From positions 3,393,501-3,457,500 of the forward strand of contig NZ_CP012643.1 of NCBI RefSeq assembly GCF_001310085.1: DNA of 64,000 nt, written 5' to 3'. Positions 38,825 through 43,871 of this stretch are shown one piece after another. Numbering within the stretch: position 1 is the first letter of the stretch; the number at the start of each line of letters is the position of its first letter. Under the pieces are notes generated by a model that was not told the DNA's origin, did no database searches, and saw only the letters and a program-made list of their open reading frames with translations. The position numbers were made by a program, and so were the translations under genes. Source of the stretch: Rufibacter tibetensis. Lineage in GTDB: Bacteria; Bacteroidota; Bacteroidia; Cytophagales; Hymenobacteraceae.

Positions 38825-39466
38825 TTGAGCTACGTACAAAAAATAAAATCAGATCCCCGGCTGAAAGCCTTTGCTCTTTATCTGCTGATGCCTAAAAACC
38901 AGGCAAGACCCAGATGGTGGGTTCAACAGTTTATGAATCCTTTTTACCATAAAAAGGGTACAAACGCCGTGTTCTGCCGCAAGTCTAGGTTAGATGTTTT
39001 ACCATTTAACCCCTTCACCATTGGTAGTGGCTCGGTAGTTGAGGACTATGCCGTGGTGAATAACGGGATGGGAGCTGTACATATTGGTGATAACACCTTT
39101 GTAGGTCTTTTTGATGTGGTCATAGGGCCTGTTACCATTGGCAACAATGTCATCATTGCCCAGCACGTAGTCATTTCAGGGTTAAATCACGGATATGAAA
39201 ACGTTCTGGTGCCTATAAAAGACCAGCCATGTACTACTGCTGAAATAGTGATTGAAGATGATTGCTGGATTGGGGCAAATGCGGTGATCACCGCCGGTGT
39301 ACGCATAGGGAAACACTCTGTGGTAGCGGCAGGGAGCGTGGTGACCAAAGATGTTCCCCCTTTCTCTGTGGTAGGAGGAAACCCCGCCCGCATTTTAAAG
39401 GAGTATAACCCAGATGTTGCCAAATGGGAGAGGTTCCAAAAGGTAGATAAAGGGCAGCTGGTCTGA
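38825..39466 (+). CDS. Left-handed beta-helix (hexapeptide) acyltransferase
   Basis: A 213-residue acyltransferase, probably an O-acetyltransferase decorating the polysaccharide. It appears to start at TTG; residues SDPRLKAFALYLLMPKNQAR look conserved and lie upstream of the first good internal ATG. Hexapeptide repeats (IGDNTFVGLFDVVIG, IGNNVIIAQHV, IEDDCWIGANAVITAGVRIG) fill residues 70-195. The catalytic His lies in VISGLNHGYE. It matches the xenobiotic/maltose acetyltransferase group that uses acetyl-CoA. Confidence 0.85.
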   Translation: MSYVQKIKSDPRLKAFALYLLMPKNQARPRWWVQQFMNPFYHKKGTNAVFCRKSRLDVLPFNPFTIGSGSVVEDYAVVNNGMGAVHIGDNTFVGLFDVVIGPVTIGNNVIIAQHVVISGLNHGYENVLVPIKDQPCTTAEIVIEDDCWIGANAVITAGVRIGKHSVVAAGSVVTKDVPPFSVVGGNPARILKEYNPDVAKWERFQKVDKGQLV

Positions 39467-39570: not shown

Positions 39571-40428
39571 ATGAGACAATTCAAGAACCCAACCTGGATA
39601 AATGACATAAAATTTGAGTACGAGAGCTTTGATCAAATACCCGCCCATGTATTTGATCAAATAAACAGAGACTTGGATAAGGTGCAAAGCAAGCAACCCT
39701 TGGTGAGCATTGTGATGTCTGCCTGGAATGAGGAGGTGAACTTGCTTAGAACAATTGCAAGTATGTCCAGAATGAAAACCAAATATCCTTTTGAGATCAT
39801 TGTGATTAACAATAACTCACAGGATAGAACCCAGGATACAATGGACAGGCTGCACGTAAAACGTTTGTTCCAACCTAAACAAGGATGCGGGTTTGCGCGC
39901 CAAATGGGGATGGAGCATGCCGCTGGCAAATACATTCTTTTAGCTGATGCAGACTGCTATTATCCTTCCTGCTGGATAGACGAAATGATAGATGTTCTTA
40001 CCCAACCAGACGTGGTATGTGTGTATGGCAGGTATTCTTTCATAAGCGAAAAAGGCTTCCCAAGATGGAAACTGTCATTGCTTGAATTGATGAAGGATGC
40101 CTTTGCAGAAATTAGACACATCAAACGACCATATTATAACTCGTTTGGATTAAGCATGGGCTTTATCAAAGAGTATGGGATGAAGATAGGTTTCGTCCCT
40201 TCAAAATGGAGAGGCGATGACGGGATGCTTTGCCTTGGCCTCATGAAGTATGGTAAAATAAAGCAGGTTCGGTCAAACAAAGCAAGAATCTGGACAGCAC
40301 CCAGAACTTTGCAACGGAGCGGATCCTTCTCGCAAGTTTTAAAAGAAAGAATCTTAATAGAAGCCAAACGCTTCAAAGGCAATTTCAATAACAAAATGCC
40401 AAAGGATCTAAGCATGCAGGATGAATAG
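39571..40428 (+). CDS. GT2 glycosyltransferase
   Basis: A 285-residue soluble GT-A enzyme. It has SIVMSAWNEEVNL, IIVINNNSQDRT, GFARQMGMEHAAGKYILLAD and the metal-binding ADADC. The acceptor region includes WRGDDGMLCLGLMKYG, where GDD is the likely catalytic acid. No membrane helix is seen. It probably adds one sugar to the repeat unit. A 155-bp gap separates it from the tandem mosaic glycosyltransferases. Confidence 0.87.
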   Translation: MRQFKNPTWINDIKFEYESFDQIPAHVFDQINRDLDKVQSKQPLVSIVMSAWNEEVNLLRTIASMSRMKTKYPFEIIVINNNSQDRTQDTMDRLHVKRLFQPKQGCGFARQMGMEHAAGKYILLADADCYYPSCWIDEMIDVLTQPDVVCVYGRYSFISEKGFPRWKLSLLELMKDAFAEIRHIKRPYYNSFGLSMGFIKEYGMKIGFVPSKWRGDDGMLCLGLMKYGKIKQVRSNKARIWTAPRTLQRSGSFSQVLKERILIEAKRFKGNFNNKMPKDLSMQDE

Positions 40429-40572
40429 TTAATAGCGCATAAGAGCTCCTTTTAATGGTTCTTTTCTGAAAATCGTTATGAAACTGAATAAGGTTGTTTG
40501 AAGAAGGAAAGGATGTTTCTGGCGAAATGAAATGAGGAAAGCTTTTGATAATCATCAATGCATTTTTCACAT

Positions 40573-40964
40573 AACACTGAGATATGACTAACACCGAAGC
40601 ACCCTTTTATTTTCCTGGCGTCACGCTACTGATCACGCACTACAACCGGAGCGGCTCTTTGGAGCGGCTGCTGAGCGCCTGCCGCGAGCGGGGCTGCTCC
40701 TTCGACGACATCGTGGTCTCCGACGACGGGAGCAAGCCCGAGCACCTGGGCGCGCTGAAGAGGCTGCAGGGGCAGTACGGCTTCCAGCTGGTGACCACGC
40801 CGGTGAACCGGGGCCTGGGCAACAACATCAACAAGGGGCAGGACGCGGTCAAGACGCCCTACACGCTCTACGTGCAGGAGGACTTCGTGCCCACCCCCGC
40901 CTTCCCCGGGCACTTCCGCGACGCGCTGGAGATCATGAAGGCTGAGGACAAATGGGACCTGATT
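40573..40964. repeat. 392-bp direct repeat, copy 1 (GC-rich glycosyltransferase 5' half)
   Basis: This block, from AACACTGAGATATG to GACCTGATT, recurs at 41585-41976 with only 4 mismatches that I count by eye. It covers 11 bp of leader plus the first 127 codons. Its core (about 40618-40950) is strikingly GC-rich, with codons such as CTG, GGC, GAG and GAC dominating, whereas flanking sequence is AT-leaning. Composition switches abruptly at both ends. Confidence 0.95.
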
Positions 40965-41396
40965 ACCCTTTATGGTTATTCAGCCTACCCGTACATGAAG
41001 CCTTACAAGAAGGGCTTCTCCGAAAAAATCTTCAAGCCATGGCATACCAACCACCTAAAGTTTTATTATTACGGAGATCACCCTCATCTGAGAAGAAGTG
41101 ACTTCCTGAAAAAATTTGGAAGGTATGTAGAGGGCAAGAATGTAGATGTAACGGAACTCACCATGAGCCTATCCTTCATAAAGAACCAGGGGAGAGGGCT
41201 TATGTTCGATCAATACAAGGCCTTGTTTGATCAGGTAAACACAAGCCAGGAGCCCAGTACGGCTACTTACCGACAGAACTGGAGAGAGCGTAAACATGCA
41301 GCCGTCCTTTTTATGAGATGGTTGTATTTGAAATACAAATTCTTAAACCTGAACTACAGATTATTACTCACAAACAAGATTGAACATACAGTTTAA
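40584..41396 (+). CDS. GT2 glycosyltransferase with GC-rich, duplicated catalytic half (copy 1)
   Basis: A 270-residue GT-A enzyme. Residues 1-127 hold the nucleotide-sugar binding half (TLLITHYNRSGSLERLLSAC, IVVSDDGSK, VNRGLGNNIN, YVQEDFVP as DxD-like motif). They are nearly identical to those of the next gene, both in protein and DNA. Residues 128-270, the acceptor-side half, diverge (YSAYPYMKPYKKGFSEKIF, DHPHLRRSDFLKKFG) and use the AT-leaning codons of the neighbourhood. This suggests a recently replaced or homogenised donor half joined to an older acceptor half. Donor specificity should match its neighbour while acceptor may differ. Confidence 0.88.
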   Translation: MTNTEAPFYFPGVTLLITHYNRSGSLERLLSACRERGCSFDDIVVSDDGSKPEHLGALKRLQGQYGFQLVTTPVNRGLGNNINKGQDAVKTPYTLYVQEDFVPTPAFPGHFRDALEIMKAEDKWDLITLYGYSAYPYMKPYKKGFSEKIFKPWHTNHLKFYYYGDHPHLRRSDFLKKFGRYVEGKNVDVTELTMSLSFIKNQGRGLMFDQYKALFDQVNTSQEPSTATYRQNWRERKHAAVLFMRWLYLKYKFLNLNYRLLLTNKIEHTV

Positions 41397-41584
41397 CTTA
41401 GAATTAAAACATCAGATAGAAAAGTTGGTAAGACAGGAGTAGAATTTAGATAAGCCACACATGCTCCAGTATAGAGCATAGATTACGGAAAGATCTACTG
41501 GCCTTGTGCGAAGAAAACACTCTTAAACAAACCAAAATTGAGGAAACAGCACCGCTTATACTTACAAGCTTGTTGGTTCCACAA

Positions 41585-41976
41585 AACACTGAGATATGGC
41601 TAACACCGAAGCACCCTTTTATTTTCCTGGCGTCACGCTGCTGATCACGCACTACAACCGGAGCGGCTCTTTGGAGCGGCTGCTGAGCGCCTGCCGCGAG
41701 CGGGGCTGCTCCTTCGACGACATCGTGGTCTCCGACGACGGGAGCAAGCCCGAGCACCTGGGCGCGCTGAAGAGGCTGCAGGGGCAGTACGGCTTCCAGC
41801 TGGTGACCACGCCGGTGAACCGGGGGCTGGGCAACAACATCAACAAGGGGCAGGACGCGGTCAAGACGCCCTACACGCTCTACGTGCAGGAGGACTTCGT
41901 GCCCACCCCCGCCTTCCCCGGGCACTTCCGCGACGCGCTGGAGATCATGAAGGCTGAGGACAAGTGGGACCTGATT
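41585..41976. repeat. 392-bp direct repeat, copy 2
   Basis: Near-identical second copy of the block at 40573-40964. The four differences are ACT to GCT in the second codon, CTA to CTG, GGC to GGG, and AAA to AAG. Three of the four are silent. Identity ends abruptly after the codon for Ile127. Confidence 0.95.
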
Positions 41977-42378
41977 GCCTTTTACTCTTATGCCGCTTAC
42001 CCGTACTTAAGGCCTTACAAGAAGGGATTTTCTGAGAAACTATATAAGCCCTGGTATATCAACTACAAGAAGATATATGCTTACTCAGATCACCCTCATC
42101 TAAGGAAAAGCGATTTCCTGAAGAAGTTTGGCAGATATGTGGAGGGAATCAAATCTGATAAAACGGAGTACCTGATGTGTGTGTCTTTCATCAAAAACAA
42201 GGGCCAAAGTTTATTCTTCAATGAATACAAAAGCTTGTTTGACCAGGTAAACCCAGAAGATGAGCCAAGTACAGTAACAAGAACCAAGTGGACTCAGAGT
42301 AATAATCTTTTTATTGTAGTGGTGAGAGATATTTATAGACAGATAAAATATAATTATGATCTTCACGTGGCAAAATGA
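41596..42378 (+). CDS. GT2 glycosyltransferase with GC-rich, duplicated catalytic half (copy 2)
   Basis: A 260-residue paralogue of the preceding enzyme. The first 127 residues differ at only one position (Ala2 for Thr2). The C-terminal half is clearly homologous but diverged (YAAYPYLRPYKKGFSEKLY, DHPHLRKSDFLKKFGRYVEG, then a different tail). The GC-rich core lies within codons 12-120. The 199-bp spacer between the genes is unique except for the 11 leader bases that belong to the repeat. It probably transfers the same donor sugar to a different acceptor position. Confidence 0.88.
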   Translation: MANTEAPFYFPGVTLLITHYNRSGSLERLLSACRERGCSFDDIVVSDDGSKPEHLGALKRLQGQYGFQLVTTPVNRGLGNNINKGQDAVKTPYTLYVQEDFVPTPAFPGHFRDALEIMKAEDKWDLIAFYSYAAYPYLRPYKKGFSEKLYKPWYINYKKIYAYSDHPHLRKSDFLKKFGRYVEGIKSDKTEYLMCVSFIKNKGQSLFFNEYKSLFDQVNPEDEPSTVTRTKWTQSNNLFIVVVRDIYRQIKYNYDLHVAK

Positions 42379-42434: not shown

Positions 42435-43871
42435 ATGGACAACAAAAAGAAAGCAATAAATGGAGGAAAATGGGTGACTATCTCAACGGTAGTGACAACG
42501 TTGTTCCAATTTTTGCAGATTGCCATTCTTGCCAGACTTTTAGATCCTTTAGCTTTTGGTGTAGTTAGTATTAGTACCCTGATTATCAACTTTTTTAACA
42601 TTTTTGCTAATCTTGGTTTCTCAAATTCTATTATTCATAAACAGGAGAGCGATAGAAATATTCTGTCAACGCTTTATGGGCTAAACATCCTTTTAGGAGT
42701 GATTATCTTTCTGGTAATCAACTTTAGTTCATTTTTGGTGGTTGATTTCTATGATGAGCCAAGACTGACCAGTGTGTTGAGGGTATCATCCTTCTATTTC
42801 CTGATAGTGTACATTGGACAGATATATTCCATTTTGTTACAAAAGGAATTACTGTTTAAATCAGTAGCAATTGTAGATATAGTAGGAGCCTTGTTTGGCA
42901 CGTCAGTAACTGTAACCCTCGCCTATAATGGATTTGAGGAGCTTTCCTTGATCTATGGGCAGTTGGTCATGCAGACGGTTAAATCAGTCCTGCAGGTCTA
43001 TTATGGCCGTAAGTTCTTTCTGCCAGCATTTTATTTCAACATTAAGAAAGTCAAAGACCATTTGATGTTCGGGGTGTATAATGTGGGAGATGGACTCTTT
43101 AGCTTTTTTCAAAGTAATCTGGATAACATAGCCATCGGGGGGGTGTTGGGGGTGAAGATGCTAGGGTATTATACCATAGCCTATCAGTTGGCTATATTCC
43201 CAATCTCAAGACTTAACCCAATTGTATTGCAGGTGGCTTATCCGGTTATTGCTAAAATGAAGCAGGATGCGGCTGAGCTAAAGAGATCTTATCTTAAGAT
43301 ATTGGATTTGATTAGCTATGTGAACTTCCCTTTGCTAGCGGGCTTGTATATTACCGCTGAAAGTGTTGTTCCATTGATTTACGGGCCAGGCTGGGAACCT
43401 ACTATCTACTTAATCAAGATCTTTGTTTTTGTAAGTGCTTTCACTTGCCTTAGTCACCCATTGTTTACTTTAGCTTATACAAAAGGAAAACCTAATCTGC
43501 TATTTTACCTGAACCTGATCACCTTAGCCGTGAAATTGCCCTTAGTGTATTTTCTAGGTAAATACTGGGGAGTTACAGGAGTTGCATTCGCCTTTTTATT
43601 AGCTACGTTCATCAATTTCGCCTTGAATTTTGCTATAGTTCATCACCTGATAGGAAGCTTCCTGATGGATTTTGGTAAAATCATCATAAAGCCTATTGTG
43701 TATTGTTCCTTGCTAATCGGGATGGTTTTCCTGTACAAGTCTTTTGTTGGCTATCAGGGTTTAGTAAATACCATTGCTGAGATTGTAATAGGAGGGCTTG
43801 TTTATGGTGGCTTAACACTTGCCTTCAAATTGTCCTTTGAAGAATTAAAAGCACTTAAAAAGCTGGTTTAA
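42435..43871 (+). CDS. Wzx-type oligosaccharide flippase
   Basis: A 478-residue integral membrane protein of the MOP/polysaccharide-transport family with about 12-14 helices. The N-terminus reads KKKAINGGKWVTISTVVTTL and the first helix region ends ILARLLDPLAFGVVSISTL, a classic start for lipopolysaccharide flippases. It should translocate lipid-linked repeats across the inner membrane for the polymerase encoded at 33769. Together with the polymerase and the co-polymerase it makes this a Wzx/Wzy-type pathway. Confidence 0.9.
   Translation: MDNKKKAINGGKWVTISTVVTTLFQFLQIAILARLLDPLAFGVVSISTLIINFFNIFANLGFSNSIIHKQESDRNILSTLYGLNILLGVIIFLVINFSSFLVVDFYDEPRLTSVLRVSSFYFLIVYIGQIYSILLQKELLFKSVAIVDIVGALFGTSVTVTLAYNGFEELSLIYGQLVMQTVKSVLQVYYGRKFFLPAFYFNIKKVKDHLMFGVYNVGDGLFSFFQSNLDNIAIGGVLGVKMLGYYTIAYQLAIFPISRLNPIVLQVAYPVIAKMKQDAAELKRSYLKILDLISYVNFPLLAGLYITAESVVPLIYGPGWEPTIYLIKIFVFVSAFTCLSHPLFTLAYTKGKPNLLFYLNLITLAVKLPLVYFLGKYWGVTGVAFAFLLATFINFALNFAIVHHLIGSFLMDFGKIIIKPIVYCSLLIGMVFLYKSFVGYQGLVNTIAEIVIGGLVYGGLTLAFKLSFEELKALKKLV

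Follow-up and report, generated by a model that had tools for sequence, protein, structure and literature searches.

Gene conversion between duplicated genes is a recognised source of concerted evolution in bacteria. The tuf, rRNA and nifH genes, for example, are more alike within a genome than expected from their history, and their conversion tracts span a few hundred nucleotides (PMC8223754). In gene-conversion antigenic variation, silent cassettes are copied into homologous surface-related genes (PMC8223754). A separate line of work concerns GC-biased gene conversion, which predicts higher GC content where recombination is frequent, as well as interference with preferred codons ending in A or U (Lassalle et al. 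2015, PMC4450053). Whether recombination raises GC in bacteria is disputed: one paper argues for it in most species (PMC4450053), while Bobay and Ochman 2017 reportedly reject it outright (cited in PMC6867656). A preprint on Mycobacterium tuberculosis paralogs reports no association of GC content with conversion counts. In primate X-chromosome palindromes, paired copies are kept alike by intrachromosomal conversion and have GC above their flanks (PMC8981503).

A tandem pair of glycosyltransferase genes in Rufibacter tibetensis can be compared with each of these. The window analysed is a 64,000-nt stretch (contig NZ_CP012643.1, positions 3,393,501 to 3,457,500), and coordinates below refer to it unless stated otherwise. 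Unlike in the concerted evolution of tuf, rRNA and nifH, mainly one half of each gene is homogenised while the other keeps an ancient split, and the homogenised half shows an extreme GC shift of a kind not seen described in the text consulted (PMC8223754). Lassalle et al. relate the GC content of genes to evidence of intragenic recombination, whereas here the contrast lies inside one gene and between paralogs; the word stems paralog, duplicat and ectopic do not occur in their text. The primate case involves large palindrome arms on sex chromosomes, compared with short tandem gene halves in a bacterium. In contrast to cassette variation, there are two intact genes with no further copy in the genome, and the outcome is uniformity rather than variety; expression was not examined. 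In the literature examined, no description of GC-biased conversion between bacterial paralogs was seen.

Copy A (40584..41396, + strand, 270 aa) and copy B (41596..42378, +, 260 aa) both belong to glycosyltransferase family 2 (GT2; PF00535), with 48.4 and 47.7 bits (E 1.3e-12 and 2.2e-12) against a gathering cut-off of 23.3. NCBIfam gave no name above cut-off for either. An AF2 model of copy A (pLDDT 86.9) matched TarS, TarP, RmlT, WrtF, SpsA and K4CP, which are GT-A enzymes, with Foldseek probability 1.00 and query TM of about 0.5-0.6, supporting a predicted GT-A fold. A sequence search for a close solved relative returned only chondroitin synthase at E about 0.01. The genes lie in a polysaccharide cluster with other glycosyltransferases, including an upstream GT2 gene (39571..40428, +, 285 aa), a hexapeptide acyltransferase (38825..39466, +) and a polysaccharide flippase (Polysacc_synt_3; 42435..43871, +).

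The sequence-only reading had described a 392-nt block shared by the two genes with four differences, three of them silent, and this observation is confirmed. At an offset of 1012, positions 40573-40964 and 41585-41976 differ at 40587 (codon 2, T/A), 40628 (codon 15, silent), 40814 (codon 77, silent) and 40952 (codon 123, silent). The match reaches a little further upstream, from about 40565, with two more mismatches, and breaks at codon 128 to roughly 60-75%. The converted tracts are 40565..40964 (+) in copy A, from about 19 nt upstream of the ATG to codon 127, and 41577..41976 (+) in copy B. The last 19 nt of the 199-nt spacer between the genes (41397..41595) belong to the repeat. This is the only repeat of 40 nt or more reported in 38-45 kb, and a search of the genome found only these two copies. 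GC is 0.65-0.67 in the core windows and mostly 0.30-0.48 in the other 200-nt windows of 38-45 kb. An assembly error, which had been named in advance as a possible refutation, is unlikely, as the R. tibetensis genome (G000) has 3 contigs and completeness 100, and the copies still differ at 4 sites.

The pair is ancient. A search for related loci kept 80 of 168 relatives, which together with the window and six further genomes gave 87 entries: 69 with two copies, 5 with three or four, and 13 with one copy in the fetched stretch. Entries carry L numbers and genomes G numbers below. In 65 two-copy Bacteroidota entries (the window, L003, G015 and L016 were set aside), the first gene has the A-type C half (the 3' half) in 60; for G002, G011 and G014 the order rests on locus coordinates, and in L031 the second copy is on the other strand. 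Typical A-B identity is about 0.65 aa in the N half (the 5' half) and 0.58 in the C half, with similar GC3. Of the 30 positions that best separate A from B, 25 lie in the C half, among them 157-158 and a three-residue gap at 249-251. Trees were built from 27 pairs chosen out of the 69 two-copy entries, and their C halves separate A (27) from B (27) at 99/93. Arrays of three or four tandem copies of this GT2 family occur in L041, L026, L047, L060 and L079.

However, three Rufibacter-group genomes depart from this pattern: G000, G009 (taken to be Rufibacter sp. XAAS-G3-1) and G015. Their N halves are 0.98-1.00 identical at DNA level within each genome but only 0.79-0.86 identical between genomes. 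The 100% identity in G009 is weaker evidence, since its copy A is cut by a contig end (L003 starts in codon 6). In the N-half tree, the copies of these genomes pair within the genome, and all six form a clade at 100/98. Approximately unbiased (AU) tests on 9 genomes rejected A-copy N halves held as one clade (p 1.4e-80, with one set of identical rows left free) as well as C halves of the own genome held together (p 5.5e-6). Paralogs are therefore closer than orthologs over the tract, while the remaining sequence keeps its orthologous relationships. In window numbering, the main tract ends at codon 127 in G000, 157 in G009 and 156 in G015 (with a few mismatches in G015). Codons 158-164, which differ between A and B in the same way in all three genomes, are spared; in the window these are LKFYYYG in copy A (41055..41075, +) and KKIYAYS in copy B (42067..42087, +). 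Codons 165-181 are again 98% identical in G009 and 100% in G015, against 82% in G000. In codons 153-253, silent sites differ less within a genome (pS 0.51-0.64) than like with like between genomes (0.75-1.05), indicating that conversion also reaches the C half. The upstream GT2 gene lies between A and B in the non-converting G002, G011, G014 and G060, but upstream of A in G000 and G015, where A and B are adjacent. Adjacency is not sufficient: G061 has the same order without conversion, and many adjacent pairs elsewhere are not homogenised. Larkinella rosea (L016) shows a separate, weaker N-half homogenisation (82% against 68% nt) with ordinary GC3.

The homogenised halves are extreme in composition, with GC3 of 0.93-0.97 against 0.48-0.72 in the 3' halves of the three genomes. 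In the window, the GC3-extreme core covers codons 16-120 of copy A (40629..40943, +) and copy B (41641..41955, +), with GC3 of 0.93-1.00 per 15 codons and 1.00 from codon 31 to 105; values are 0.25-0.80 after the tract. The first 15 codons lie in the tract but have GC3 of only 0.47-0.67 (about 0.5 in the window). GC3 of the N half minus that of the C half is +0.24 to +0.47 in the six copies, compared with a mean of 0.001 (sd 0.064, max 0.17) in 161 other family copies, none of which has an N-half GC3 above 0.78. Amino acids are shifted too: GARP residues make up 0.26-0.30 of the N half, against 0.183 (sd 0.028, max 0.254) in the 161 others. Windows of 119 codons with GC3 of 0.90 or more were found only in these two genes in a 464-kb sample of G000 (7 of 8,622) and a 189-kb sample of G009 (9 of 3,016). 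In G015 there were 22 of 2,410, and the top 12 all lay in these genes or in a gene with PA14 repeats.

The evolutionary rates of the halves also differ. Between genomes, dN is alike in both (N 0.08-0.21; C, like with like, 0.14-0.19), while silent change is low in N (pS 0.28-0.34) and saturated in C (0.75-1.05). Two-fold sites change at 2-4 of 35-41 places in N, and at about half in three of four like-with-like C comparisons (15 of 53 in the fourth). Fourfold sites in N differ less between genomes (0.17-0.34) than saturation would give (0.45-0.51), so a shared origin younger than the C halves is not excluded. Translational selection is rejected on codon adaptation, a check proposed by the sequence-only reading. 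Genes of the ribosomal-protein region (25 ORFs recognised by sequence around the L2 gene) have GC3 of 0.36, and measured against them the N half has a codon index of 0.38, lower than each of 7,954 other windows, some of which are counted twice where sampled segments overlap. Another gene with a very low codon index (G000:C1:2831754-2832696) lies between two 72% identical repeats but was not examined.

GC does not rise with every conversion. Codons 128-152 are diverged in the window, with GC3 of 0.64/0.52, but converted in G009 and G015, with 0.76 and 0.88. In the codon 165-181 patch, however, GC3 is 0.94 in G015 but only 0.59/0.53 in G009, as expected if many rounds are needed, but also as expected without any bias; non-converting G002 reaches 0.93 there without conversion. 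The C half, which conversion also reaches, has GC3 of 0.42-0.68 in codons 153-253. GC is raised in the main tract of all three genomes, relative both to unconverted sequence of the same gene and to unconverted homologs, with exceptions. Since the six N halves form one clade, the GC rise at this locus may be a single event. Recent AT-to-GC and GC-to-AT changes were not compared, as one genome per species was available and sites between species were too diverged to polarise safely.

To find out whether other loci show the same association, 857.5 kb of G000 and 800 kb of G015 were scanned for same-strand duplicates within 15 kb at 88% identity or more over 100 nt. This gave 13 pairings (six loci in G000, seven diagonals in G015), not all independent: three are among the same three SusC-like genes. 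One G015 pairing (601224) may not be real genes. In 11 of the 13, mean GC3 inside the duplicate exceeds that of the rest of the gene, but identity and GC3 excess gave a Spearman correlation of 0.42 (p 0.16), which leaves a general relation across loci undecided. Three pairings among SusC-like genes in G015 and one in G000 show only -0.06 to +0.09 per copy. Besides GT2, there are two strong cases. PA14 tandem repeats in a large protein (G000:C1:2986044-2987000 (L175), L177 4359-5156 and L176 5338-5864; 498-nt spacing in G000 and G009) are 98% identical in G009 and G015 where measured and about 85-87% in G000. Their GC3 is 0.83/0.90 against 0.50 in the rest of the gene in G000, 0.96/0.87 against 0.68/0.54 in G015, where the locus holds a run of 91 N, and 0.88-0.96 in most repeat windows against 0.12-0.52 in G009. 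A GT61 tandem pair in G015 (L256:16660-19017) shares a 641-nt, 95% identical block with GC3 of 0.62/0.64 against 0.25/0.34.

The reverse search, for genes with a 75-codon window of high GC3, used chosen thresholds. In G000 (0.88 or more) it returned A, B, the PA14 gene and a UXS-like gene, and in G015 (0.94 or more) the PA14 gene, UXS, UGD and a SpoIIE-like gene; of the NCBIfam matches behind the last three names, only the UGD subfamily passes its cut-off. The SpoIIE-like gene (L243:3099-5174, -) is single-copy in G015 and has an unexplained GC3 0.96 stretch within codons 151-230. UXS and UGD are single in G000, G009 and G015, and UXS (GC3 up to 0.97 in 75 codons) therefore first appeared to be a counterexample. 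However, the UGD-UXS module (L291-L297, G000:C1:3224413-3226760) is duplicated in six sister genomes, mostly with one GC-rich and one GC-poorer copy and mosaic patches; the UXS copies are 4.7-6.2 kb apart in five and on different contigs in G010, with UGD beside each. Seven genus members with one UXS match have GC3 of 0.30-0.49, while 9 of 12 copies in the duplicated group have 0.82-0.95, and the single copies of G000, G009 and G015 have 0.83-0.85. In G003, the poorer copy has GC3 of 0.25-0.55 over codons 1-140, where it differs from its partner, and 0.90-1.00 over codons 141-260, where it matches; G014 shows a similar patch. Yet in G003, G004 and G014 (and for UGD in G011) one copy has GC3 of 0.91-0.95 over nearly its whole length, although its partner is diverged and GC-poor over long stretches. 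GC-rich patches in the poor copy may therefore have been copied from a copy that was already rich: copying of GC-rich sequence is clear there, its origin is not, and the module supports the link only in part.

Taken together, A and B are best read as an ancient tandem pair of GT2 enzymes in a surface-polysaccharide cluster whose 5' halves, which bind the nucleotide sugar in GT-A enzymes, entered a regime of recurrent ectopic gene conversion in the ancestor of the three genomes. In this view, conversion that overwrites the 3' half is mostly purged, because that half carries most of what makes A different from B, so that the main tract ends where it does and further downstream conversion shows as a patch that skips residues 158-164. 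Mismatches would be repaired preferentially to G or C, and over many rounds this would have driven third positions to 93-97% G/C and shifted amino acids towards G/A/R/P. A rough calculation, from a background GC3 of 0.554 to 0.95 in the tract, gives about 94% of mismatches resolved to G/C in a simple two-copy model, or a population-scaled bias about 2.7 above background. The analysis itself demonstrates the age of the pair, the repeated homogenisation, the extreme GC3 of the main tract in all three genomes, the conflict with preferred codons and the existence of further loci with the same association; that repair bias rather than another GC-favouring force is the cause, and that selection sets the boundary, are inferences. 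Recurrent gene conversion concentrated in the N half is close to certain, while GC bias of that conversion as the cause of the GC rise is given a probability of about 0.7. The idea of a shared donor and different acceptors is inferred from the predicted fold and from where A/B differences lie; donor and acceptor activities were not assayed.

The interpretation in the sequence-only reading was partly supported. Old duplicates with diverged 3' halves and gene conversion of the 5' halves hold, and conversion is also recurrent, since three genomes each homogenised their own version. Import of a donor-binding half from a high-GC relative is not supported: the proposed search for a GC-rich source found no donor, and outside these genomes the best N-half match in 390 genomes of the order is about 70% amino-acid identity, none of the 161 other family copies has an N-half GC3 above 0.78, and GC3 has stayed at 0.93-0.97 while 3'-half silent sites between genomes saturated, which an old import alone would not do. 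Nor is the suggested shuffling of acceptor halves, since the C halves fall into two old types on the 27 pairs treed and conversion makes the copies alike instead of diversifying them. The same GC-rich 5' half in a single gene, which would have counted against that reading, was not seen in the 13 entries with one copy in the fetched stretch.

Other explanations remain possible to differing degrees. A single import into the ancestor followed by unbiased conversion is unlikely, although the sharp composition contrast, the sub-saturated N-half fourfold divergence, the GC-poor converted patch in G009 and the coexistence of one GC-rich UGD-UXS copy with a diverged GC-poor copy, which looks like two origins, would fit it. 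Besides the missing donor, N-half dN between genomes resembles C-half dN while C silent sites are saturated, so an import should have drifted towards the genomic GC3 of about 0.55 unless a force maintains it, and in codons 128-152 GC3 is higher in the two genomes that converted them. Some conversions (the G009 patch, Larkinella rosea) show no GC rise, and some GC-rich copies are single or diverged from their partner, so import plus another GC-favouring force stays possible. Selection for G/C-ending codons, RNA structure or an identical donor half is very unlikely. Both copies keep the same fold family and possibly the same sugar donor, and the boundary falls near the middle of the protein, but genes of the ribosomal-protein region prefer A/T-ending codons, the homologous copies elsewhere show no mean N-half GC3 excess, and silent sites are identical too, which protein selection does not need. 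The reverse cause, in which DNA that was GC-rich for another reason pairs and recombines more, is equally doubtful; GC-rich copies do exist beside a diverged partner (G003, G004, G014) and as single copies, yet conversion also occurs at ordinary GC in Larkinella rosea and the G009 patch, and the seven genus members with a single UXS match have GC-poor UXS.

A further reading, about as likely as not once the GC-poor G009 patch is taken into account, is that conversion between neighbouring duplicates in this bacterial group is so strongly G/C-biased that over many rounds it drives silent sites to near fixation of G/C and changes protein composition. GC islands inside genes would then mark long-standing conversion tracts, and single-copy GC-rich genes such as UXS would be fossils of lost duplicates.

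In summary, this locus suggests that DNA copying between duplicate genes is biased towards G and C in bacteria, and makes this disputed idea testable. One half of a gene converts and the other mostly does not, in the same gene, genome and operon, with 65 unconverted pairs in relatives as controls, so that population size, mutation, expression and codon preference are largely held constant. It also warns that GC islands inside genes need not mean horizontal transfer, and the spared residues point to where A and B may differ in function.
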